A stretch of 64,000 bases of DNA, taken from the NCBI GenBank assembly GCA_017792465.1, contig CP051234.1:1118606-1182605 (forward strand). Direction: 5' to 3'. Shown piece by piece: positions 40,003 through 51,664 of this stretch. How positions within the stretch are numbered: the first letter of the stretch is position 1; each line of letters starts with the position of its first letter. The notes below the pieces were generated by a model, which worked only from the letters and a program-made list of their open reading frames with translations, was not told the DNA's origin and made no database searches. The DNA comes from Filomicrobium sp. Its GTDB lineage: Bacteria; Pseudomonadota; Alphaproteobacteria; Rhizobiales; Hyphomicrobiaceae. The translations under genes and the position numbers were made by a program.

Positions 40003-41373
40003 ATGAACAAGTACAGCCTGAGCGCCTTGCTGGCGGCCGGCCTTTTGGCGGGCAGCTTGGCAACTTCGGCGCAAGCAGCTGACCTTGGTGGGGATTGTTG
40101 CGCCGACCTCGAGGAGCGCGTTGCTGAACTGGAAGCAACGACCGCTCGCAAGGGCAATCGTAAGGTTTCTCTCACCGTTTCGGGTTTTGTAGCCAAACAG
40201 CTTCTCATCTGGGACGACGGTCATGAAAGCAATGCTTACGTGACTGACACCGGCTCGGTTTCGATCGGTACTCACTTCGCATTTTCTGGTAAGGCCCAGA
40301 TCAACAGCGAGTGGTCGGCAGGCTTCTTGATCAAGATCGAAGCCATGAACGACGATTCCCTGACCGTCGGTCAGGCCAGCGACGAAGGCCCGAACGCCAT
40401 GAACATCCTCCAGGGTGGTGGCGGTGGTCCGCTGGCTCTGGAAAGCGCTTACTGGTATTTGCGCAGCGAGCGTCTCGGTCGCCTCAGCGTCGGTCAGCAG
40501 TCATCGGCTGCAGACAACCAAGCCATCCTGCCGGACGGTTCGGGTTCGCTGGTTCAGGCCAACTACGTTATGTATGACGTCAACGGCTTCACCACTCGCT
40601 CGAACGGCGGCTACAACGGCTTCGGTTGGGGCGCGCTTGCTAACTGTCAGGGCCTGAACGCCTACGGCGGTGCATTCGGTGACTGCGACGGCGTTCCGCA
40701 CAACAACGTTCGTTACGATACCCCAACTTTCGCCGGTTTCTCGGCGTCGGCATCCTGGGGTGAAGACGATATGTGGGCGATCTCCGGTCGCTATGCTGGT
40801 GAATTCCGTGGCATCAAGCTGGCTCTTGCTGCTGCTTACCACGAAACGACTGACGAAAACGGCACGGGCATCTTCGTCGGTGGCGCTAACAACGGCGGTC
40901 TCGACGTTGGTCACTTCCAGCTCGGCGGTTACGTTGAACACGTTCCTTCCGGTCTGTTCTTCTACGGTGCCTACGCCAAAGCCAACAACGAAACGACCGC
41001 TTCGGCTCGCGGCGCTGGCAAGACCAACCCTGACGGTGACATGTTCTACCTCAAGGCAGGTCTGAAGCGTAAAGTCTTCGCTGTCGGTTCGACCACCTTC
41101 TACGGTGAATACGGCCAGCATGACGATACCTTCACGGCTGGTATGTATGACGCTGGTGTCAACGAATCCGAGCTTGAGCAGTACGGTCTCGGTATCGTCC
41201 AGAACATCGACGCTGCAGCGATGCAGATGTGGGTTGCATGGCGTCACTATGACGGCGACGTAAGCTGCGACAACGCTGTCTCAGCTGGTTGCGGCGGTCT
41301 GGGTCTCCTCCAGGGCAGCAACGACCTGGAAGAATTCGACCTCGTCAAGTTCGGCGCTCTGATCAACTTCTGA
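40003..41373 (+). CDS. Alphaproteobacterial porin 2
   Basis: This 456-residue paralogue of the porin at 37100 shares the signal peptide type (cleavage near SAQAAD), the DLGGDCCADLEERVAELE helix, most barrel strands and the LVKFGALINF end. Differences cluster in loop regions such as SDEGPNAMNILQGGGG versus the longer loop of porin 1. This suggests different pores or surface faces. It has its own leader and terminator, so the two porins are separate transcription units that may be expressed under different conditions. A 68-base block (40522-40589) is identical to porin 1. Confidence 0.93.
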   Translation: MNKYSLSALLAAGLLAGSLATSAQAADLGGDCCADLEERVAELEATTARKGNRKVSLTVSGFVAKQLLIWDDGHESNAYVTDTGSVSIGTHFAFSGKAQINSEWSAGFLIKIEAMNDDSLTVGQASDEGPNAMNILQGGGGGPLALESAYWYLRSERLGRLSVGQQSSAADNQAILPDGSGSLVQANYVMYDVNGFTTRSNGGYNGFGWGALANCQGLNAYGGAFGDCDGVPHNNVRYDTPTFAGFSASASWGEDDMWAISGRYAGEFRGIKLALAAAYHETTDENGTGIFVGGANNGGLDVGHFQLGGYVEHVPSGLFFYGAYAKANNETTASARGAGKTNPDGDMFYLKAGLKRKVFAVGSTTFYGEYGQHDDTFTAGMYDAGVNESELEQYGLGIVQNIDAAAMQMWVAWRHYDGDVSCDNAVSAGCGGLGLLQGSNDLEEFDLVKFGALINF

Positions 41374-41580: not shown

Positions 41581-41652
41581 TTTGTTTTTGGGCTTCTGCC
41601 GGGTTATTTGATAGGCTCATCCGCCAGTCGTTTTCCTAACCCAGCGAACCTA

Positions 41653-42834
41653 ATGTTCATTTCGTTCTTCCACGAACTCAAAGCCGCGAAGGTCCCTGTC
41701 AGCCTTCTGGAATACCTGACGCTTCTCGAAGCTTTGGAGAAGGGCGTCAGCGGCGGCTCTGTCGAAGAATTCTATTATCTGTCGCGTGCGGCCTTGGTGA
41801 AGGACGAGCGGTTCCTGGACCGGTTCGACAGGGTTTTCGGCCAAGTTTTCAAAGGGCTGTCGGCACTTTCCGAGGCGGCCGACTTGCAGACAGAAATTCC
41901 CGAGGAGTGGTTACGCGTCATGTCAGAGCTCAATTTGAGCGATGAGGACAAGGCGCGGATCGAAGAACTCGGTGGGTGGGAGAAGATCATGGAGACGCTG
42001 AAGGAGCGTCTCAAAGAGCAAAAGGGCCGGCACGAGGGCGGCAGCAAATGGATCGGGACCGGCGGCAAATCGCCGTTTGGCGCTTATGGCTATAACCCTG
42101 CCGGCGTTCGGATTGGCCAAAAAGAAAGCCGTCACCGGCGCGCGATCAAGGTCTGGGATAAGCGCGAGTTTCGCGACCTCGATGACAATATCGAAGTCGG
42201 TACGCGCAACATCCGCGTCGCGCTTCGCAAGCTGCGCAAACTTGCCCGTGAAGGGGCGGCCGAAGAATTTGATCTCGACGGTACGATCCAATCGTCTGCC
42301 AATCGCGGCTTTATCGATATCAAGATGCGGCCTGAGCGCCGGAACGCTATTAAGATCTTGATGTTCTTCGATGTCGGCGGATCAATGGACTGGCACATCA
42401 AGACGGCTGAAGAACTCTTCTCGGCGGCTCGTAGCGAGTTCAAGCATCTTGAATACTACTACTTCCACAATTGCCTTTATGAGGGTGTCTGGCGCGACAA
42501 CGCGCGGCGGCGCTCGGAAGTTATCCCGACGCACGACGTCCTCAACACGTATCCGGCTGACTACAAGGTGCTGTTCGTCGGCGATGCCTCGATGAGCCCT
42601 TATGAGATCGTCATTCCAGGTGGGGCTGTCGAGCATATGAACCCTGAAGCGGGTTCGGTTTGGCTGCAGCGCATCACGGACATCTATTCGAGCTGTGTGT
42701 GGCTCAACCCTGTGCCGGAAGAGCAATGGGGCTGGACGCAGTCGATTGGGATGATCAACGAACTCATGCATGGGCGCATGTTCCCGTTAACCATAGAGGG
42801 GCTCGAGCGGGCCGTGCGTGAGCTGAAGAGATAG
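41653..42834 (+). CDS. CoxE-like VWA-domain protein
   Basis: This 393-residue protein opens with FISFFHELKAAKVPVSLLEYL, the standard start of CoxE-type VWA proteins, and carries a VWA domain near the middle (MFFDVGGSMDWHIKTAEELF). The MIDAS reads DxGxS rather than DxSxS, as often in this group. It is the normal partner of a MoxR ATPase, with which it would remodel or activate a target complex; the likely partner is at 33375. ATG 41653 is chosen because family homology starts there. The LFVGDASMSPYEI segment is also typical. Confidence 0.9.
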   Translation: MFISFFHELKAAKVPVSLLEYLTLLEALEKGVSGGSVEEFYYLSRAALVKDERFLDRFDRVFGQVFKGLSALSEAADLQTEIPEEWLRVMSELNLSDEDKARIEELGGWEKIMETLKERLKEQKGRHEGGSKWIGTGGKSPFGAYGYNPAGVRIGQKESRHRRAIKVWDKREFRDLDDNIEVGTRNIRVALRKLRKLAREGAAEEFDLDGTIQSSANRGFIDIKMRPERRNAIKILMFFDVGGSMDWHIKTAEELFSAARSEFKHLEYYYFHNCLYEGVWRDNARRRSEVIPTHDVLNTYPADYKVLFVGDASMSPYEIVIPGGAVEHMNPEAGSVWLQRITDIYSSCVWLNPVPEEQWGWTQSIGMINELMHGRMFPLTIEGLERAVRELKR

Positions 42835-43017: not shown

Positions 43018-43578
43018 ATGAAATCGGCTTGCTGGCTTTTGAGATCCGCACTTTTGAGTTCGGCTGTGGTTTTGGTTGCTGGATGTTCGAGCGGGCCTAG
43101 CCTGACGACGGGCTCGTTGTTCGGCGGCGGTGAAAAACCTGCAGCGCCCTCTCCGACGGACAACAATACGCCGACGGGCCGCGCGCTACACGTGGGAACG
43201 GTTTCGGCGCGGGCAACCAAGTGCGGTTATAACTTCGACGCAGCATCGCTTCGCTCGAACTATCTGGCTGCCGAGGCCTCCAGCGGCATGCAGATTGCCG
43301 ATCTTTCAAAGATCGAGCAGATCTATGACACCGGGTATCGCGGTGTGCTGTCTGCCGCTTCACAAGACCCGAATTATTGCAGCTCCCAGCGCACGTCCGA
43401 AATCAAGACCGCACTCAACAAGGCGTTGGCTGGAGATTATTCGCCTCCTCCTAAGCAGATTGATCAGGGCGGCGGCGTATTTGGCGGCTTGTTCGATCAG
43501 GACGTCGTTGGCGATACCGGTCCGAAGTTCGGTAGCGGTGACTGGTGGGATGCCCAGCGCGACAATAAGAATCCTTAG
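43018..43578 (+). CDS. Lipoprotein of unknown function, 186 aa
   Basis: A lipoprotein signal with lipobox LVAGC puts the mature N-terminal Cys at about residue 23. A Gly/Pro/Ser linker and a domain with two Cys residues (TKCGYNF and NYCSSQ) follow. The middle segment (LRSNYLAAEASSGMQIADLSKIEQIYDTGYRGVL) looks helical. The tail is Gly/Asp-rich with WWDAQRDN at the end. I do not recognise the family. It follows the CoxE gene by 183 bases. Confidence 0.75.
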   Translation: MKSACWLLRSALLSSAVVLVAGCSSGPSLTTGSLFGGGEKPAAPSPTDNNTPTGRALHVGTVSARATKCGYNFDAASLRSNYLAAEASSGMQIADLSKIEQIYDTGYRGVLSAASQDPNYCSSQRTSEIKTALNKALAGDYSPPPKQIDQGGGVFGGLFDQDVVGDTGPKFGSGDWWDAQRDNKNP

Positions 43579-43702
43579 CGGCCTGGTGGTTGGTCCCCGC
43601 CTTCCGCCTCGTGGAGCCCGGACGGTGCTCGACATGCTTGGGTTTCTCAGGCTTGAGGTCATTTTTCGAGTTTCAGCGACATGACGGCCAGCCTGTAAGC
43701 GC

Positions 43703-44062
43703 GTGCAACAGCTCCTCTATATCGAAACGGTCTTGAAGCTTTCTGCAGGGCTAGTGCTGGTACTGCTGCCGCTGATGGCGTGCCGCGTTCTTGGTCTGCC
43801 GCGTCCGCAATCGGGACTTTGGCCGCGTCTTCTCGGGGCGGTGCTGATCGGCTTAGCGGGCGCCACCTATATCGAAGGCAGTACCAATCTGCACGGTCTG
43901 GGTATGGCCGGTTGCGCCATCATCAACCTGGTCTCTGTCGTCGTTGTTTTGACGCTGATGGCGCTCGGCGGCGTTGGTAATACGCGGCGCTCCAAATTCA
44001 GCATGGCGCTGTTGGCGCTCGCTTTGATGGTGCTTGGAATTCTCGAATTGGCGCAGCTGTAA
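43703..44062 (+). CDS. Small four-helix membrane protein
   Basis: This 119-residue hydrophobic protein has about four membrane helices and little outside the membrane. Recognisable stretches are LSAGLVLVLLPLMACRVLGLP, LLGAVLIGLAGATYIEG, GMAGCAIINLVSVVVVLTLMAL and MALLALALMVLGILEL. The start is GTG without a good ribosome-binding site. The family is unknown to me. It stands directly upstream of the FNR-box region but has its own reading unit. Confidence 0.65.
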   Translation: MQQLLYIETVLKLSAGLVLVLLPLMACRVLGLPRPQSGLWPRLLGAVLIGLAGATYIEGSTNLHGLGMAGCAIINLVSVVVVLTLMALGGVGNTRRSKFSMALLALALMVLGILELAQL

Positions 44063-44530
44063 TTGGGCTCCAATTCGCTCAGTTTGGGATTTGCATTATA
44101 AATCCTTTTGCGAAAGAATTGATCAAGATCAATTTCATTCTGCCAATTTATTTTGCGCTGCATCATCATGCGGCAGTTCTGTCAGCGCCACCAACATGCT
44201 GAATTCACTCACTTAATCTCTGAAATCTCTATCTGGCATGGATTTCGCTTTTTCTTTTCGCAAACGCGTGACGCGCGTTGAGCAGGTGATCCAACGGCGG
44301 GTCATCTCACGGCAGTGCAGCCAATCCTGAGCATTTCGAACTTCCGGTTTTATCCGGAGGATCGACCGGTGAATTAAACCGGCCGATTGCGAGTGCTCGA
44401 TCACGAATGCGTGGAGATTGGCAATGTCGGTGCGAGCGAGCTTCTTTCCAAGATTCAAATCATCAGTGACGCGCGAAGCCACCACGCAGCTTTGCCTGGG
44501 CGTTGCTGCGCGCGCTGGGGGGCAGCCGCA
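44063..44530. other. 468-bp control region of the heme/redox cluster
   Basis: No gene is evident. It holds an FNR-type box at 44119-44132 in an AT-rich patch and a GGAGG at about 44357 that leads only to a three-codon frame. The leader between the box and the first credible start is about 400 bases, long enough to hide a small RNA or a leader peptide. Confidence 0.45.
44119..44132. promoter_or_regulatory. FNR/FixK-type binding site
   Basis: TTGATCAAGATCAA is a perfect TTGAT-N4-ATCAA dyad, the consensus of the CRP-FNR superfamily (FNR, ANR, FixK, DNR/NnrR). It lies in the only AT-rich part upstream of the redox cluster, as expected for control by low oxygen or nitric oxide. Confidence 0.8.
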
Positions 44531-46576
44531 ATGAACGTCATGGTCGGCATGCGGTCGCTGTTGGCGAGCCGGAAGGCAGACGCTTCTGAGGACACCGGCG
44601 CTGGGGGCGATACCGTAGCAGGTGCGGGCAAGGATCAGGGCCCGGTCCTCGTTGTCGGCGGTGGACCGGCAGGCATTCGGGCGGCGCAAGAGCTCTGCAA
44701 ACTTGGCTGTTCGGTCATCCTTTTCAACGCCGAACGCTGGAAGCCCTACAACCGTGTGAAACTGACACCGCTGCTGTCCGGCGACGTTCAGCTTGGGCAG
44801 GTGTCGCAGCCTCTGGATTTTCCCGGCCCCGGCACCGTCTCGCTTTATTCGGACACGCGTGTCGTCGCGATCGATCGCGAGGCCAAGACGGTCGCGACCA
44901 ACCGCGGGCGCATCTTTCCTTATCGCAAGCTCATCTTGTGCACCGGCTCGCGCGCCTTCGTGCCACCGATCCCCGGGATCGACCTGGATGGCGTTTTCAC
45001 GTTCCGCGACTTCGACGATGTCGAGAAGCTTGTCGCGCGCTCGGTGCGGTCCCGGCGTTGCCTGGTTATCGGTGGCGGCCTGCTTGGGCTTGAAGCTGCG
45101 CGCGGAATGATGGACCGGGGAGTAGAGACCTGGGTCGTCGAACATGAAGCGCATTTGATGGCGCGCCAGCTTGACGCCAAGGCGGGCGAACTTCTTCACA
45201 AAGCCATCGAGGCCATGGGCCTTAAGGTACTGACCGGCACGCGGGTGGCGCAGATCACCGGCAACAGCCGCGTCGAGCGCGTTGAATTCGCCGGCGGTGA
45301 CGCCATCGACTGCGATACCGTGATTGTCTGCACCGGCATTCGCTCCAACATTGAGATGGCGCGCGATAGCGACCTGGCTGTTGGACGCGGCATCAAGGTT
45401 GGGCCGACGCTGCAAACGAGCGACCCTGACATTTATGCCGTCGGGGAATGTGCCGAATTCGACGGCAACGTGTATGGTCTCGTCGGCCCAGGGTTCGAGC
45501 AGGCGGTGACGGCCGTCCGGCATCTCAACGGGGACGCCGCCAGTTATCGCGGCTCGGTGCCGGCGACGAAGCTTAAAATTGTCGGGACCGATGTCTTCAG
45601 CATGGGGGACGTCGAGCAGCTCGACCAGCGCAACGATGTCAAAACCCTGTCCTTCCAGAATGAAGACGGCACAATCTATCGCCGCATCGTGCTGAAGCAC
45701 GGACATCTGGTCGGGGCTGTGGCACTGGGCGACTGGGCGGAATTCAGCCGCCTGCAGGAGGCCATCAAGGCGCGCGCTCTGATCCTGCCGTGGCAACAGG
45801 CGCGCTTCCGCAAGAGCGGTGTTGTATGGCCGGTTCAGGAGCCCAAGAGCGCGAGAGACTGGCCGCGCGCAGCGACCGTCTGCAACTGCACCGGCGTAAC
45901 GCGCGGACAAATCGGCGACTGCATTGCGCTGGGCGCAAACTCTTTGGAAGACGTGGCTCGCGAGACAGGGGCATCGACGGTCTGCGGCAGCTGCAAAATC
46001 CATATCGGCGAATTGCTGTCAGCTCCGCCGCCTCGAGAAGCGATCTGGGGCTGGAAGAGCCTCATCGGGTTTTCATTGGCGGCACTTGCTTTGTCGCTTC
46101 TCACGCTCGGGATGCCGATTTGGCCGACCGCCCACACCATTGAAGCACGCGGGTTCGCCGACATTCTGTTTCTCGATGGCATCACCAAGCAGATCACCGG
46201 CTATACGCTGCTCGCGATTTCGGTTCTGGCAGCCATTCTGTCGCTGAGGAAACGCATTTCCTGGCTTCGCCTTGGCGCGTTCGGCGGTTGGCGCATGTTC
46301 CATATCGTTATTGGGACGCTGGGGATGATTGCGCTTTTCGCGCACACCGGTTTCCGGCTCGGCTCAAACCTCAATTTCTGGCTGATGCTGACGTTTCTGG
46401 GCATTGCTGCGGCCGGCGCGATCGCCGGTCTTGCGTCCGCTCTTGAGCACCGCGTTTTCAGCACGCCACAGCCTGCTGCCCGAATGCGGTCGGCCTCGTT
46501 CTGGGTGCATCTCATCGCGTTCTGGCCGCTGCCTCTCCTGCTCGCCGTCCACATTCTCTCAGTCTATTTCTATTGA
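44531..46576 (+). CDS. Membrane FAD oxidoreductase with BFD [2Fe-2S] and diheme-b-type domain
   Basis: This 681-residue fusion begins like NirB-type nitrite reductases: FAD motif VLVVGGGPAGIRAAQ (about 37), second Rossmann motif CLVIGGGLLGLEAARG, and a BFD-like [2Fe-2S] domain with four Cys (CNC at about 450, CGSC at about 485). In place of the siroheme domains it has five helices (505-681). Helices 3 and 5 each hold His-x13-His pairs (FHIV..AHTG; VHLI..AVHIL), fit for two b hemes. It should take electrons from NAD(P)H to the membrane. I chose ATG 44531; a TTG at 44387 adds an unlikely N terminus. The cytochrome gene follows directly. Confidence 0.85.
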   Translation: MNVMVGMRSLLASRKADASEDTGAGGDTVAGAGKDQGPVLVVGGGPAGIRAAQELCKLGCSVILFNAERWKPYNRVKLTPLLSGDVQLGQVSQPLDFPGPGTVSLYSDTRVVAIDREAKTVATNRGRIFPYRKLILCTGSRAFVPPIPGIDLDGVFTFRDFDDVEKLVARSVRSRRCLVIGGGLLGLEAARGMMDRGVETWVVEHEAHLMARQLDAKAGELLHKAIEAMGLKVLTGTRVAQITGNSRVERVEFAGGDAIDCDTVIVCTGIRSNIEMARDSDLAVGRGIKVGPTLQTSDPDIYAVGECAEFDGNVYGLVGPGFEQAVTAVRHLNGDAASYRGSVPATKLKIVGTDVFSMGDVEQLDQRNDVKTLSFQNEDGTIYRRIVLKHGHLVGAVALGDWAEFSRLQEAIKARALILPWQQARFRKSGVVWPVQEPKSARDWPRAATVCNCTGVTRGQIGDCIALGANSLEDVARETGASTVCGSCKIHIGELLSAPPPREAIWGWKSLIGFSLAALALSLLTLGMPIWPTAHTIEARGFADILFLDGITKQITGYTLLAISVLAAILSLRKRISWLRLGAFGGWRMFHIVIGTLGMIALFAHTGFRLGSNLNFWLMLTFLGIAAAGAIAGLASALEHRVFSTPQPAARMRSASFWVHLIAFWPLPLLLAVHILSVYFY

Positions 46577-46584
46577 GGCCGGCG

Positions 46585-47997
46585 GTGAGCAAAACAACTA
46601 CGCTTTGGATCGTCTGGTTTCTCTTTACGCTTGCTGGCGCGGGCGTTCTGGTCGGCTCGATGTTTTATGGCGGACCGACGCGGGCCAACCTTTTGATCGG
46701 CGGCACGACAAGCGGGCATCACCAGATCGAGCTTGCCTGCGGGGCCTGCCACACGTCGGCATTCGGCGGGACTGAGGAAATCGAGAAGACCTGTCATGGC
46801 TGCCATGACGCGGAGCTTGAAAAGGCCAAAGACTCGCACCCGATGAAGAAGTTTCGCGACCCGCGGAACGCGGATCGTCTGGAGAAGCTTGCGGCCAACA
46901 AGTGCATCACCTGTCACACCGAACATAAGCCGGACATCACCAACCCGATGGGCGTGACGCTGCCGACCGACTACTGCGAGCTTTGCCACGACGATGTCGG
47001 CAAGAACCGCCCCAGCCACAAAGGTCTCGCGTTCAACACCTGCGCCAGTGCCGGCTGCCACAACTATCACGATAACAAAGCCCTCTATGAAGACTTCCTC
47101 GTCAAGCACGCCGGCGAGCCGAACGTCGCCGAAAAGCCGATCATCAAAGACTATACCGAGAAGATTGAGATCGAGGCTGCCGGAGACGCTCTAACGCTTG
47201 CCTCACAGGCCGATGCGCCGGCCGACAAAGTCACCGACAAATCGATGAAGGAATGGCTTGGGTCCTCGCATGCAAACGCGGGCGTGAACTGTTCGGGCTG
47301 TCATGCCGTCGACCAGAAGACGCCTGAAACGATCGCGGCCAACTGGGTGGATAAGCCGACGCACAAAGCGTGCGCCAGTTGCCACGGCCTTGAGACGACG
47401 ACCTGGCTATCGGGCAAGCACGGCATGCGGCTCGCGCCCAAGATGCTGGTCGAAACCGAGGCCATCTTCGGGCTTTTCCAGAACAAGACACTTGGGCCGA
47501 TGCGTCCGGAGCTGGCGCGGCTTCCCATGCATTCGAAGGTGGCTCACGCAGAACTTGGCTGTTCGAACTGCCACAGCCCTCACGCCTACAAGACCGAGCC
47601 CGCGCACGTCGAGGCCTGCACCAGCTGCCACAACGATGAGCACACGAAGAATTATGAAGCCTCAGCGCATGGGCGGCTTTGGCAGGACGAGGTCGCGGGT
47701 GTCGGCGCGAAGGGATCCGGGGTCAGCTGCGCGACCTGTCATCTGCCGCGCCGGTGGATGGAAGATGCCAGCGGCTATGAGGAATTCCTCGTCTCCGACC
47801 ACAACCAGAATTTCAATCTGCGACCCAATGAAAAGATGATCCGCAGCGTGTGCATGAACTGCCACGGCCTCGGGTTCTCGATCGATTCATTGGCCGACAA
47901 AGATCTCATACGGCGGAATTTCGGTGGGCTTCCTTCGGGCCATATCGAAAGCATCGACTGGGCCATGAAGCGTGTCCAGGAGAAGGGGAAGAAGTGA
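46585..47997 (+). CDS. Membrane-anchored multiheme cytochrome c (about 11 hemes)
   Basis: This 470-residue protein has one N-terminal helix (LWIVWFLFTLAGAGVLVGSMFYG) and then ten CxxCH motifs: CGACH, CHGCH, CITCH, CELCH, CSGCH, CASCH, CSNCH, CTSCH, CATCH and CMNCH. A CX4CH motif (CASAGCH) probably binds an eleventh heme c. Extra His residues can serve as second axial ligands. It should be a periplasmic electron wire tethered to the inner membrane. I chose GTG 46585 because GAGG lies six bases before; the frame opens at 46573 and overlaps the previous stop. It is co-transcribed with the FAD oxidoreductase, its likely electron donor. Confidence 0.9.
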   Translation: MSKTTTLWIVWFLFTLAGAGVLVGSMFYGGPTRANLLIGGTTSGHHQIELACGACHTSAFGGTEEIEKTCHGCHDAELEKAKDSHPMKKFRDPRNADRLEKLAANKCITCHTEHKPDITNPMGVTLPTDYCELCHDDVGKNRPSHKGLAFNTCASAGCHNYHDNKALYEDFLVKHAGEPNVAEKPIIKDYTEKIEIEAAGDALTLASQADAPADKVTDKSMKEWLGSSHANAGVNCSGCHAVDQKTPETIAANWVDKPTHKACASCHGLETTTWLSGKHGMRLAPKMLVETEAIFGLFQNKTLGPMRPELARLPMHSKVAHAELGCSNCHSPHAYKTEPAHVEACTSCHNDEHTKNYEASAHGRLWQDEVAGVGAKGSGVSCATCHLPRRWMEDASGYEEFLVSDHNQNFNLRPNEKMIRSVCMNCHGLGFSIDSLADKDLIRRNFGGLPSGHIESIDWAMKRVQEKGKK

Positions 47998-48045
47998 GTT
48001 TTTCGTGCAAACCGACTTGGCTTTTCTAGAAAAAGGAGAAAGCAG

Positions 48046-48627
48046 ATGATGAAACTTTCCAGGACGCTCGTCGCTACAGCGATCGCAGCCGGCAGCATCA
48101 TTTCGGCAGGTGCCGTTGCCAGCGTCAATGCGGCCGGTGTCGCCTATAAGGACGTCGCAGACATGCTGATCGCGGTCATGGTGGCTGATCGCTCGACCTA
48201 CACGAAAAAGGTCGTTCAGCGTCTGGCTGCGAAGGAAAAGGTCATCAAGGCTTCGGAACATTTCGAAGACGACAAGGCGCTGCCGCTGCCAGCACAGATG
48301 TTCCGTTTCGGCGCCGAAGCCGTGGCCGACAAGACCGATAAGTTCACCTATTCGCTGCTGTCGCTTTGGCCGATCAACAAGCAGAACGCGCCGCGCACCG
48401 AAATCGAAAAAGCAGGTCTCAAGTTCGTCGCCGAAAACAAAGGCGAAAACTACTACGGCGAAGAAACGCTCGGCGGCAAGAAATACTACACCGCCGTTTA
48501 TGCCGACGTCGCAGTCGCGAAGGTCTGTGCCAGCTGCCACAACGGCCACAAGGATACGCCGAAAAAAGATTTCAAAGTCGGCGACGTGATGGGTGGGGTC
48601 GTCATCCGCATCCCCATGACCGAATAA
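48046..48627 (+). CDS. Tll0287-like (DUF3365) periplasmic heme protein
   Basis: This 193-residue protein has a signal peptide (cleavage near SVNAAG) and a PAS-like Tll0287/DUF3365 domain ending in KVCASCHNGHKDTPKKDFKVGDVMGGVV, with one CxxCH heme c site. Such domains often act as periplasmic heme sensors or small electron carriers. No kinase or other output domain is attached, so here it probably carries electrons or binds a gas ligand. AAGGAG precedes the ATG. It lies 48 bases after the multiheme cytochrome and 94 bases before the globin. Confidence 0.85.
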   Translation: MMKLSRTLVATAIAAGSIISAGAVASVNAAGVAYKDVADMLIAVMVADRSTYTKKVVQRLAAKEKVIKASEHFEDDKALPLPAQMFRFGAEAVADKTDKFTYSLLSLWPINKQNAPRTEIEKAGLKFVAENKGENYYGEETLGGKKYYTAVYADVAVAKVCASCHNGHKDTPKKDFKVGDVMGGVVIRIPMTE

Positions 48628-48721
48628 GCGCGACAAGGACCAGGAGCGAGGCTGCTCAAAAGCCTCGCTTCCTCAGCCATCCGCCCGCTTGGGCGCAGAG
48701 CATTTTCAAAAGGATTGAAAG

Positions 48722-49183
48722 ATGACCCCGGAACAAGTCAAGCTCGTGCAAGACAGCTTCAAGAAAGTTGCGCCGATCGCAGATCAGGCCTCCGACATTT
48801 TCTACGCCAAACTGTTTGAGATCGCGCCGGAAGTTCGCTCGTTGTTTCCAGAAGACATGAGCGAGCAGAAGGGCAAGCTGATGGGGATGCTGGCGACAGC
48901 CGTCAACAACCTGCATCAGGTTGAAACCATCATACCGGCCGTTCAGGACCTCGGACGGCGCCATGTCAACTACGGCGTTACTGCCGACCAGTATAAGCCG
49001 GTTGGCGAAGCGTTGATCTACACGCTGGAAACCGGGCTCGGCGACGACTTCACGCCGGAAGTCAAGGAAGCGTGGGTGACGACTTATGTCACACTTCAGA
49101 AGGTCATGACGGACGCGGCTGCCGAAGTCGAAGCCAAGAAGCCTGCGGAAAAGAAGGGCTTTTTTGCCCGCATGTTCGGCTGA
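48722..49183 (+). CDS. Single-domain globin
   Basis: This 153-residue protein has the M-type (3/3) globin pattern. LVQDSFKKVAPIADQASDIFYAKLF forms helices A and B, the CD corner Phe is in RSLFPEDM, and the proximal His81 is in LGRRHVNYGV. The tail KKPAEKKGFFARMFG is basic and may dock at the membrane. There is no reductase domain, so it needs an outside electron donor to act as a nitric-oxide dioxygenase or oxygen carrier. AAAGGA precedes the ATG. Its place at the end of an FNR-boxed heme cluster supports a role against NO or in low oxygen. Confidence 0.9.
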   Translation: MTPEQVKLVQDSFKKVAPIADQASDIFYAKLFEIAPEVRSLFPEDMSEQKGKLMGMLATAVNNLHQVETIIPAVQDLGRRHVNYGVTADQYKPVGEALIYTLETGLGDDFTPEVKEAWVTTYVTLQKVMTDAAAEVEAKKPAEKKGFFARMFG

Positions 49184-49192
49184 GGCTTAGAT

Positions 49193-49218
49193 GGGCGCGG
49201 GCCAGCCCCTCCGCGCCC
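49193..49218 (+). terminator. Terminator at end of heme/redox cluster
   Basis: Arms GGGCGCGG (49193-49200) and CCGCGCCC (49211-49218) pair perfectly around a ten-base loop, followed by TCTATTCTCTC. It lies nine bases after the globin stop. Confidence 0.65.
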
Positions 49219-49852
49219 TCTATTCTCTCTTGCGGCATTTTGAGTGGTCTGAAGCGCCGCTTTTCTCGGGCGTACGTACTGGCGCGTCGCGACCTGCGCC
49301 GAGCCCGGGTTATTACGAAACGGTATCGGCGCCAATCGTTGCGGCACTTGTTGGCCGTCGCGCATAAGTCTTTGAAAAGCCCCCTCAAGAACTGCTGCCT
49401 ATTATTCCCAATCCTTTGGCCTTGTGGCCGCTCAGGCCCGTAACATGCCCGGGCCAAACAGCATGCTGGAGATTCTTCACCCCCCGCGCTTTGTTCGCGC
49501 CATTGACGGGGGGATAGCGATCGACTATCCGAACTTTCGACTTTGGTTCTCAGGCGCATTGCCACTTTGTCCTGTACTGCGGTCATGCCGTGCTGCGGTT
49601 TCTACGCGGTGCTGAAAGACTTCGCGAACGCCCGAGCGATTGCGCGCCCCGTTGGACGGGAGATTGCGCAAGTGGTTTTCCCGCAATCGACGGCGTTTCT
49701 TGAGGGATTTGGGGGCTGGCTGCAGCAGATCATTCTTCGTCTGCAGGATGCCAGGATCCGAAGATTGACGTGATCTAGATCGCTTTTGTTGGTGGGCTTT
49801 TAGAATTGCCACGCGACGCTAGCTTTCGGACTTGCCATGGAGTTCATCGACG
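49219..49852. other. 634-bp intergenic region, nothing recognised
   Basis: Small open frames exist on both strands but none has a ribosome-binding site or a recognisable product. It separates the redox cluster from the polysaccharide region and must hold the promoter of the glycosyltransferase. Confidence 0.4.
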
Positions 49853-51664
49853 ATGCCTAATCTCGAAGGCGCACAATCCGTCAAGCCGATTTGCATTGGA
49901 TTGTGGCTCCCGTTTGGGCCCACGACGACATGGCGAGGCGAAGGTATCGCGCGGACCATCGTTTTCCTGTTGAACGGCTTGGCAACGCAAGGGCTGGTTG
50001 GCAGCCGCGTCAAAATCAAGATCTACACGACGCCGTGGATGACAGAGGAAATCCGCGACTCCCTTCAGGAGCTTCTCGGCGCGCCGGCGGACACGATCGA
50101 ATTTTTCGAAATCCCTTCCGTATCGCGGAAGTTGATCAAGTACGAGAAGTTCGCCAGCAATGTTGGAACCGTCCTACTTTTTCCGATCTACTTGCCGATG
50201 TATCTGTGGCGCATGCTACGGCCGCGCAAGCGCAAGCCGGTCGGGCTCAACCGGCGCAACGCGAAATTCTGGTCTCTTGTGCGCTACCACAAGCGTGGTG
50301 GTTTTCAGCGCCCGGTTTCGCCCGGAGCTGAACCGCCTCCGCCTGCTCCGGTGACGAAAAAGGATTCTGTGGTTGTCAGAATTATCAGGCGGATCCCCTA
50401 TGTCCGGCGCGTTTTGACGTATAACGGCAGCATGGAAGAAGCCGGCTACGCGTTGGCAGCTGCGAAGCTCAAGGACGATACCGGCGTGGATGTCTGGTGG
50501 GCGATCAACCCGACGATCTTCGGGCTCGAATTCCTGCCCAAGCCGGTCGTTGTCAATTTCTGGGACTTTGCTTCCGGCGAGTTCGGCTTTCTTTGGCCGG
50601 TTGAAACGGTCGATACCTTGCAGCGGCGGATCAATGCTGCAACCAGCTCGGCAACGCATTTGATCACACAGTCACGCCACAACTACACTTTGAAGCTGGC
50701 GCCGTGTTTTGGTGTCGAACGCGATCGCGTCAGCGTCGTCTACCTTGCGCATCCCGACCACTACGCCAAATTCATCGAGACCTACGATCGCAGCCGCGTG
50801 CGTTCAAAAACATCTCGCGCAGAAGCCGATCAAATCATCAAAACATATCTCAATAAAAAGCTCGCAAACCTGAGCAGCGGCCATTTGGCGGCGCGCGGGA
50901 TCGACCTTGCCAAACTCCTGAAGTTTGACTTCGCAAATCAGCCTTTCGTTCTCATCTCGACGCAGAACCGTCCGTATAAAAATCTCATCTTTGCTGTGCG
51001 CGCATTTCTGAAAATGGTTTCGGAAAAATCAATTGATGCGAAGCTTATTCTCACCGCGCCGTTCGATCTTTCCAACGAGGACGACGAACTCGCAAACTTG
51101 ATCCGGTCGCACAACGCCTACGACCGCATCTACAGCATCCCCAGGGTGCCGGAAGACGTGCACGCAGCGCTCTACCATTGTGCCAGCGCGACCGTTCACC
51201 CGTCGCTGACAGAAGGCGGCGTCTGCGCCTATCCGTTCCTCGAAGGGATGGTTATGGGATGCCCTGGACTCATGGGCCGGGCGGACTACACGCTTGAAGG
51301 TGCGCAACTGCATCCTGCTGCCGACGACGTCCTGTTCGATGTCACCGACGATCGCGAATTGATCGAGAAATTGTCAGCTCTATTAGAGAATTCGGATGCC
51401 GGCTATCGGGCGCAGAAGGCCATCTTTGAACAGCACAGCCGCTGGAGCTGGAAATACGCCTCGGCTGAATATCTGCGTGTGATGTTGCGCGCGGCAGGTC
51501 ATGACGACGAATGGCTCTCGGAACTTGAGGCGTGCCCCGATCGCGACGCCTTCGTTGAGCATCCGCCGGAATGGGATAATCCACCCGAAGAAACCGAGAC
51601 GGCCGAGGAAGACGGGCAGCCAGTTCCGGCTGCCGAGGGCGTCGTTGGGGCAACTAGCCCCTAG
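49853..51664 (+). CDS. Family 4-like glycosyltransferase
   Basis: This 603-residue cytoplasmic enzyme probably transfers a sugar to a surface glycan. The C-terminal half has the GT-B donor domain: LISTQNRPYKNLIFAVRAF, then YSIPRVPEDVHAALYHCASATVHPSLTEGGVCAYPFLEGMVMGCP, with the E(x7)E-type motif. The N-terminal half has a basic insert (about 125-185) with a Pro-rich stretch that may be a linker. The acidic Glu/Pro-rich tail is disordered. ATG 49853 is preferred to a TTG at 49832. Donor and acceptor are unknown. Confidence 0.82.
   Translation: MPNLEGAQSVKPICIGLWLPFGPTTTWRGEGIARTIVFLLNGLATQGLVGSRVKIKIYTTPWMTEEIRDSLQELLGAPADTIEFFEIPSVSRKLIKYEKFASNVGTVLLFPIYLPMYLWRMLRPRKRKPVGLNRRNAKFWSLVRYHKRGGFQRPVSPGAEPPPPAPVTKKDSVVVRIIRRIPYVRRVLTYNGSMEEAGYALAAAKLKDDTGVDVWWAINPTIFGLEFLPKPVVVNFWDFASGEFGFLWPVETVDTLQRRINAATSSATHLITQSRHNYTLKLAPCFGVERDRVSVVYLAHPDHYAKFIETYDRSRVRSKTSRAEADQIIKTYLNKKLANLSSGHLAARGIDLAKLLKFDFANQPFVLISTQNRPYKNLIFAVRAFLKMVSEKSIDAKLILTAPFDLSNEDDELANLIRSHNAYDRIYSIPRVPEDVHAALYHCASATVHPSLTEGGVCAYPFLEGMVMGCPGLMGRADYTLEGAQLHPAADDVLFDVTDDRELIEKLSALLENSDAGYRAQKAIFEQHSRWSWKYASAEYLRVMLRAAGHDDEWLSELEACPDRDAFVEHPPEWDNPPEETETAEEDGQPVPAAEGVVGATSP

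Follow-up and report, generated by a model that had tools for sequence, protein, structure and literature searches.

A conserved four-gene cassette in Filomicrobium: a predicted NAD(P)H-to-periplasm heme relay with a globin and a nitrate-type leader RNA

The window analyzed here is a stretch of 64,000 nucleotides of Filomicrobium sp. (assembly GCA_017792465.1, contig CP051234.1, positions 1,118,606 to 1,182,605), lying within a 4.47-Mb one-contig genome (G000). Between positions 44119 and 49218 of the window, four genes on the forward strand code for a NirB-type flavoprotein with a membrane domain, an anchored 11-heme cytochrome c, a secreted one-heme protein and a single-domain globin, and they are preceded by a leader with two adjacent hexaloop hairpins. 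An earlier reading of the letters of this stretch by a model (the original prediction) had proposed an FNR-controlled redox relay with a globin at this place; the hexaloop leader was absent from that account. The features are as follows.

44119-44132, forward strand: perfect FNR/FixK-type palindrome TTGAT-N4-ATCAA (TTGATCAAGATCAA), 398 nt 5' of the likely start codon of gene 1
44287-44322, forward strand: ANTAR/NasT-type dual hexaloop in the 5' leader (P1, TGATCC[AACGGC]GGGTCA; linker; P2, GGC[AGTGCA]GCC)
44531-46576, forward strand: gene 1, 681 amino acids, NirB-type FAD/NAD(P)H domains, BFD [2Fe-2S] domain and five-helix membrane domain (from domain matches, alignment and model)
45875-46021, forward strand: BFD-like [2Fe-2S] domain of gene 1, with C451, C453, C485 and C488
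46031-46573, forward strand: membrane domain of gene 1, with H591-x13-H605 and H660-x13-H674 (from the predicted structure)
46585-47997, forward strand: gene 2, 470 amino acids, anchored 11-heme c-type cytochrome (from motifs and profile matches)
46717-47109, forward strand: gene 2, N-terminal part with five hemes (matches Cytochrom_c3_2; the NrfH-like match is under its cut-off)
47203-47931, forward strand: C-terminal six-heme part of gene 2, like HAO, octaheme nitrite reductase and NrfA, catalytic heme apparently missing (from profile and structure comparison)
48046-48627, forward strand: gene 3, secreted one-heme Tll0287-like (sCache_heme) protein without an axial Cys (PF11845)
48722-49183, forward strand: gene 4, single-domain globin (PF00042 over cut-off)
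49193-49218, forward strand: terminator-like hairpin 3' of gene 4, not above chance by itself

The four genes and their conservation

Each of the 14 other genomes compared has all four genes side by side in this order, with gene 1 cut by contig ends in some of them. A scan of named genomes gave 457 confirmed stretches, and the best 80 of these 457 are the 80 named loci referred to below (27 are shorter than 15 kb and 53 are at least 15 kb; some genomes occur both here and among the 14 first relatives). Genes 1-2-3 are adjacent in 79 of the 80 loci, and a single-domain globin is found in 58, directly 3' of gene 3 in 56 and 5' of gene 1 in two. The carriers belong to the alpha-, beta- and gammaproteobacteria, Verrucomicrobia, Nitrospirota, Dadabacteria and Poribacteria. 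Gene 2 was found in 12 of 249 sampled genomes of the order and in six of nine genomes of the genus. The unit is thus real and beyond chance (14/14 genomes; 79/80 loci). The original prediction had taken the four genes for one unit and their separation in other genomes as grounds for abandoning the idea; they stay together, strictly so for the three-gene core.

The start of gene 1 is probably the ATG at 44531 and not the TTG at 44387 assigned by the program, judging from the alignment of relatives. Pyr_redox_2 (PF07992), Rubredoxin_C (PF18267) and BFD (PF04324) all match over their cut-offs, and the four Cys of the BFD-like domain are invariant in 66/66 sequences. The best NCBIfam match is NirB (TIGR02374), at 402 bits against a cut-off of 578 and covering only model positions 2-467 of 794, and the siroheme/4Fe-4S reductase domain of the NirB nitrite reductases is missing. 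In its place, the last 180 residues form five membrane helices in the predicted model (mean pLDDT 88.8). H591, H605, H660 and H674, which make up two H-x13-H pairs in helices 584-606 and 646-679 of this heme-free model, are invariant in 66/66 sequences, whereas H640, invariant in the first 11 sequences, is His in only 50 of the 66. Foldseek matches of gene 1 are FAD reductases, and the membrane part has no PDB sequence match (E up to 1) and no Pfam family over cut-off. Because of the two H-x13-H pairs, and absent any such match, we infer that the four His are candidate ligands of two b hemes. In one metagenome contig (L045:926-2886), gene 1 lies in two frames, probably through a sequencing error or as a broken copy.

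Gene 2 contains exactly 11 c-heme motifs (10 CX2CH and one CX4CH), all invariant in 77/77 sequences, together with 11 further invariant His, a number that suffices to cap all 11 hemes. By profile and fold, its C-terminal half shares the common multiheme core of HAO, octaheme nitrite reductase and NrfA. Foldseek returned nothing for gene 2 at E 0.001 or better, and the likeness of fold rests on another structure comparison together with the sequence. When gene 2 is aligned with 6h5l, nothing in it corresponds to the catalytic CDMCH of HAO, and the window protein contains no Cys between residues 268 and 325. Gene 2 thus appears to lack the HAO/NrfA-like catalytic heme. A weak segment (5.9 bits) instead aligns the octaheme catalytic CXXCK with the gene 2 motif at 345-349, so that the heme-by-heme match is uncertain. 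A genome search for HAO with PF13447 was uninformative, since the control genomes gave no match either, and the Pfam scan also gave a weak MtrC/MtrF-like match of gene 2. Because the catalytic heme is apparently missing, the protein is probably an electron wire.

Gene 3 matches PF11845 at 75.3 bits (cut-off 24.1), and its CXXCH is present in 50/50 sequences (L075 was excluded from the alignment, its matched stretch containing a stop); a profile search gave no PDB match. An axial Cys is not a shared feature: 31 of the 50 sequences have no Cys outside CXXCH, and the remaining ones have no common Cys column except one in the signal-peptide region (6/50). PF11845 is the sCache_heme family, of which, according to the accessible part of PMC12889525, a 2026 preprint, a stand-alone member with an axial Cys behaved as a redox protein, and a signalling member without one bound nitric oxide (NO) tightly.

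Gene 4 has a globin fold and no reductase domain. The bacterial single-domain globins are closest to it, flavohemoglobins are also among the matches, and by these matches it belongs to the flavohemoglobin/single-domain globin group. Y28, Q49 and H81 of the pocket, which we take to be B10 Tyr, E7 Gln and F8 His, are invariant in 14/14 sequences.

The gene products named in the original prediction were all recovered: a NirB-like FAD/BFD protein whose siroheme half is replaced by five helices with two His-x13-His pairs, a cytochrome c of about 11 hemes with an anchor, a one-heme Tll0287-like protein and a single-domain globin. Its statement that the set has no terminal reductase domain likewise agrees with our searches, which found none. 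Of the terminator that it placed at the end of the operon, the hairpin is there, but the window has five terminator-like sites against 7.0 in shuffles, which is not above chance.

Two additions to the cassette recur. A small c-type cytochrome, possibly an onward electron carrier, is found in 30 of the 80 loci, mostly between gene 3 and the globin (for example L052, L060, L068 and L103, with a Cytochrome_CBB3 match in L068). Seven loci (L060, L068, L075, L080, L096, L100 and L105) carry, 3' of a small cytochrome c, a truncated globin and a Fer2/FAD/NAD (ferredoxin-reductase-type) reductase; all seven are without the single-domain globin.

Leader RNA and nitrate-assimilation genes

According to the accessible part of PMC8934654, ANTAR antiterminators bind two adjacent hairpins with six-base loops that have A at position 1 and G at position 4. 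Both loops of the leader (AACGGC and AGTGCA) have these bases, as in the NasST type described there, and the P1 stem can be extended to 44284. A first rule requiring at least 4 bp in both stems picked up such elements in 15 of 81 regions, the window leader not among them. With the relaxed rule, which allows a 3-bp P2, 13 of the 80 upstream regions have such a pair, one genome being counted twice; among 1475 control windows taken from these loci, three do.

A covariance model (R1) was built from ten cassette leaders, that of the window included. In the window it scores 41.1 bits (E = 6e-07) at 44287-44322, a training sequence, and the next best match has 12.2 bits. In the ten-leader alignment 100% of the paired cells are paired, and the 10 double changes (3.5 expected) exceed those of all 500 shuffles; the number of pairs with a double change, three against 2.3 in shuffles, is not special. 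Over 75 sources R1 gave 52 matches, namely the ten training leaders and 42 others, and 23 of the 42 lie on the right strand just 5' of gene 1, the globin, nrtA, nrtB or a nas-linked porin (a 413-amino-acid, Alginate_exp-like protein). One of these 23, at nrtA of the window's own genome, is weak (14.1 bits). Over 249 genomes there were 23 matches in 22 genomes; the five at cassettes are all training sequences, and the other 18 are in cassette-free genomes. Fourteen of these 18 stand directly 5' of nitrate-assimilation genes (nrtA 10, NarK-like transporter three, nirB one); of the other four, two are next to nasT/nasS but on the opposite strand, and the last two are near none of the tested genes. 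Because most cassette-free matches precede nitrate-assimilation genes, the leader element is, as judged by the model, the same element that precedes those genes. The strong dual-hexaloop matches in L159 and L160 have no tested nas gene within 1.5 kb and may mark other NasT targets.

No intrinsic terminator was found in this leader by a scan of the forward strand at 44323-44530, and Rfam gave no match up to E 1 over 43500-49900. Folding of the whole leader gave z = -1.6, with three of 100 shuffles folding as well, and no claim is based on this.

The neighbors of the cassette also point to nitrate. By the stricter scores, nas genes flank 30 of the 80 loci and 23 of the 53 that are at least 15 kb. 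A looser count gave 36 of 80, from which L033, L037, L072, L079, L088 and L108 were dropped, having only generic ABC-ATPase or kinase/phosphatase-type matches. The gene order is nasT-nasS-[4 genes]-nirB-nasA in L050, where NasA carries a BFD domain, and nrtB-nrtC-nirB-nasA-[4 genes] in L054. In the window's own genome, nasT and nasS are both present, in a nasT-nasS-nrtABC-nirB-nasA cluster (L131) at 599-611 kb, about 550 kb from the cassette. Because of the leader matches and these nas neighbors, the operon very probably belongs to the NasST nitrate regulon in this Filomicrobium genome. Four Hyphomicrobiales cassette genomes without any ANTAR protein are also without a leader match.

A NirB over cut-off is present in most genomes looked at: 11 of the 13 cassette carriers from the order, three of five others tested, and 22 of 28 named genomes whose cassette is unlinked to nas genes. 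The idea that the cassette replaces NirB was rejected on these counts. A link to denitrification by copper nitrite reductase was rejected as well: NirK is over cut-off in 49 of the 249 genomes of the order and in none of 12 cassette genomes (G234 has a partial match). Six genomes (G263, G266, G267, G275, G283 and G286) contain NirB-type open reading frames of about 424-475 amino acids with the FAD part only, within a few kb of a full nirB, which are possibly Flp-like reductases. Helical proteins without a Pfam match lie near the cassette in L093 (7480-8418, with an MFS transporter nearby) and L103 (12673-13515); they may resemble nitrate-sensing NIT domains.

The FNR-type box, on which the original prediction had rested the control of the system, is perfect here but not conserved. 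The palindrome TTGATCAAGATCAA is the sole perfect match in the window (five matches with up to one mismatch, against 1.72 expected). In 79 upstream regions of relatives (at least six genomes being present twice), however, none is perfect and three are within one mismatch, and the box is absent even within the genus. We therefore rejected the view that the system as such is under FNR control. The box at 44119 could still act in this one genome, because a FixK box and NasT hairpins both stand 5' of the nas-linked globin operon of Bradyrhizobium diazoefficiens, according to the accessible part of PMC6759348.

The surroundings of the operon are less constant. Of six window genes beside the cassette searched for in relatives' loci, one gave a match, the 456-amino-acid gene at 40003, in L023/L040 (the same genome twice). 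Upstream of the operon are a 119-amino-acid hydrophobic protein without a Pfam match (43703-44062) and a VWA/CoxE-like protein below the Pfam cut-off (41608-42834), neither of which lies beside the cassette in other loci.

Proposed function and its rivals

The reading that we favor, and to which we give just under an even chance, is that the cassette serves nitrate assimilation as an accessory: a transmembrane heme relay, fed by NAD(P)H, responsive to nitrate and accompanied by a globin, which would keep down NO and related nitrogen oxides in both the cytosol and the periplasm. Its parts differ in strength: a relay from NAD(P)H to periplasmic hemes is probable from the sequences, and NO defence as the purpose of the cassette, which is argued from analogy, is an evenly balanced question. 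Nitrate or nitrite would be sensed by NasS-NasT, and NasT, on binding the dual-hexaloop leader, would permit expression of the operon. The domains, the invariant Cys and His and the model suggest that gene 1 passes electrons from NAD(P)H through FAD and [2Fe-2S] and then over the membrane by way of two stacked b hemes, and the 11 motifs with 11 further His suggest that gene 2 is their periplasmic path, with 11 c hemes that are all six-coordinate. This order of electron flow, put forward in the original prediction, is the natural reading of the domains. The heme-c Cache protein of gene 3, with a sixth ligand other than Cys, would be the likely site of NO reaction or sensing, because its NO-binding relative also lacks the axial Cys (PMC12889525, as far as that source was accessible). 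The globin may remove cytosolic NO, as Bjgb does in Bradyrhizobium, and in the seven loci named above the truncated globin and ferredoxin-reductase-type protein would stand in its place.

A bolder form of this reading, which we consider rather unlikely, is an energy-spending periplasmic defence. Electrons from NAD(P)H would cross the inner membrane through FAD, [2Fe-2S], two b hemes and gene 2, acting as an HAO-like 11-heme wire without catalytic power, and reach gene 3, the heme-c Cache protein, which would reduce or scavenge NO in the periplasm; the globin would clear cytosolic NO, and the whole would be under riboregulation by nitrate. If true, it would be a quinone-independent NAD(P)H route to periplasmic cytochromes, spread across several phyla.

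Several observations weigh against the favored reading. The relaxed rule with a 3-bp P2 was set after the window leader had been seen, and by it the leader is found in only 13 of the 80 upstream regions. F. insigne (G220) has an ANTAR protein and yet no leader match, and the four Hyphomicrobiales cassette genomes mentioned above have no ANTAR protein at all. In 50 of the 80 loci the reachable surroundings contain no nas gene, and among 28 genomes out of these 50, 15 have no ANTAR match and six have no NirB over cut-off. Because of those 15, control of the cassette by NasT is not general across its carriers. Moreover, the single-domain globin is absent from 22 of the 80 loci, and the only stand-alone protein of the gene 3 family with published tests, which has the Cys, behaved as a redox protein and not as a tight NO binder (PMC12889525, accessible part).

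It is unlikely that gene 1 acts chiefly as a membrane-anchored Flp, that is, as an NAD(P)H reductase for cytosolic NasA and the globin, with the heme b/c branch as an overflow or redox-poising side path. Flp of B. japonicum has indeed been proposed to feed both NasC and Bjgb (PMC4724949, accessible part), and the BFD domain of the L050 NasA and the adjacency of the cassette to nirB/nasA in some loci fit such a role. However, the linkage of genes 1-2-3 (79/80) is stricter than that of the globin (58/80) and the four membrane His are invariant in 66/66, and because of these two facts the periplasmic branch looks like the main path. That gene 2 is instead a working member of the HAO/NrfA group, serving as a second, periplasmic, NAD(P)H-linked nitrite (or hydroxylamine or NO) reductase that makes ammonium, is improbable. 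Against it stand the missing counterpart of the HAO catalytic heme motif in the comparison with 6h5l and the lack of Cys at residues 268-325. The 11 extra His would leave none of the 11 hemes uncapped. The 5.9-bit segment makes the heme-by-heme match uncertain. With NirB in most cassette genomes (11/13 and 22/28) no replacement is needed.

A sensory device, in which gene 3 senses NO or redox state in the periplasm, is held in the reduced state by genes 1 and 2 and signals to a partner outside the operon, agrees with the Cache fold family, whose signalling members bind NO (PMC12889525, accessible part). But gene 3 is a free secreted protein without a signalling domain and 11 hemes are a large investment for a sensor, and we regard this explanation as quite improbable. 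Very improbable, in our judgment, is extracellular electron transfer or ferric reduction, to iron or minerals, with an incidental nas link. The multiheme cytochrome, its weak MtrC/MtrF-like match, the small c-type cytochrome of 30 loci and the presence of the cassette in biocathode, Gallionellaceae and Thiobacillus records speak for it. No outer-membrane cytochrome or MtrB-type porin is, however, among the gene families common to at least four loci, and leader and neighbors point to nitrate.

If the relay with the globin is what we propose, NO defence in nitrate assimilation would extend beyond the cytosolic flavoprotein-globin pair to a membrane-crossing heme relay in many marine and soil bacteria. 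The heme-c Cache proteins that stand alone, which are numerous, would also gain a function, and loss of the catalytic heme would be seen as a way for an HAO-type enzyme to become a wire. The cassette would moreover provide a direct electron route from NAD(P)H to the periplasm that bypasses quinone.

Comparison with known systems

The gene set was not found described in the full-text literature searched, which did not cover subscription papers and bioRxiv and thus leaves its unpublished status unproven. PHROGs (for P0002 and P0003) and PADLOC (for all four proteins) gave no match. The cassette is apparently undescribed, with parts of known kinds and a role that has a known cytosolic counterpart, and the predicted transmembrane relay fits no family tested. 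NirB (TIGR02374) has the same order of FAD domains, Rubredoxin_C and BFD [2Fe-2S] as gene 1, and its siroheme/4Fe-4S half is replaced in gene 1 by the five-helix domain with its two H-x13-H pairs. Enzymes of the NADPH oxidase/ferric reductase type carry electrons from NAD(P)H through FAD and two stacked b hemes to the far side of the membrane, with the same H-x13-H spacing as gene 1. Gene 1 differs from them in its flavin domain, in the [2Fe-2S] step that it adds and in the c hemes that would accept its electrons, and no sequence relation to them was seen in the PDB and Pfam searches of its membrane part. The C-terminal half of gene 2 aligns by profile and fold with the HAO/octaheme nitrite reductase/NrfA superfamily, whereas its catalytic heme is apparently lost and it is fused behind an N-terminal membrane anchor and a five-heme domain.

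Gene 3 shares with Tll0287/sCache_heme the single CXXCH heme c in the family domain and the free secreted form (PMC12889525, accessible part), but it has no conserved axial Cys, and in every locus examined it stands next to genes 1 and 2. The closest counterpart of the whole is the narK-bjgb-flp-nasC set of Bradyrhizobium japonicum/diazoefficiens. Like the cassette, it joins a single-domain hemoglobin and an NAD(P)H flavoprotein to nitrate assimilation and has NasT hairpins and a FixK box. There NasC makes NO from nitrite, Bjgb and Flp protect against it, and NasT controls the operon, which has a FixK box too (accessible parts of PMC4724949 and PMC6759348). The detoxification of NO has been shown in Bradyrhizobium by the same sources, whereas for the cassette we infer it. 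As these sources describe it, in the parts that were accessible, the Bradyrhizobium set is wholly cytosolic, with no membrane domain, multiheme cytochrome or periplasmic heme protein, unlike the cassette. In short, the cassette is, by analogy, the same logic as the Bradyrhizobium set with a predicted membrane-crossing branch added.

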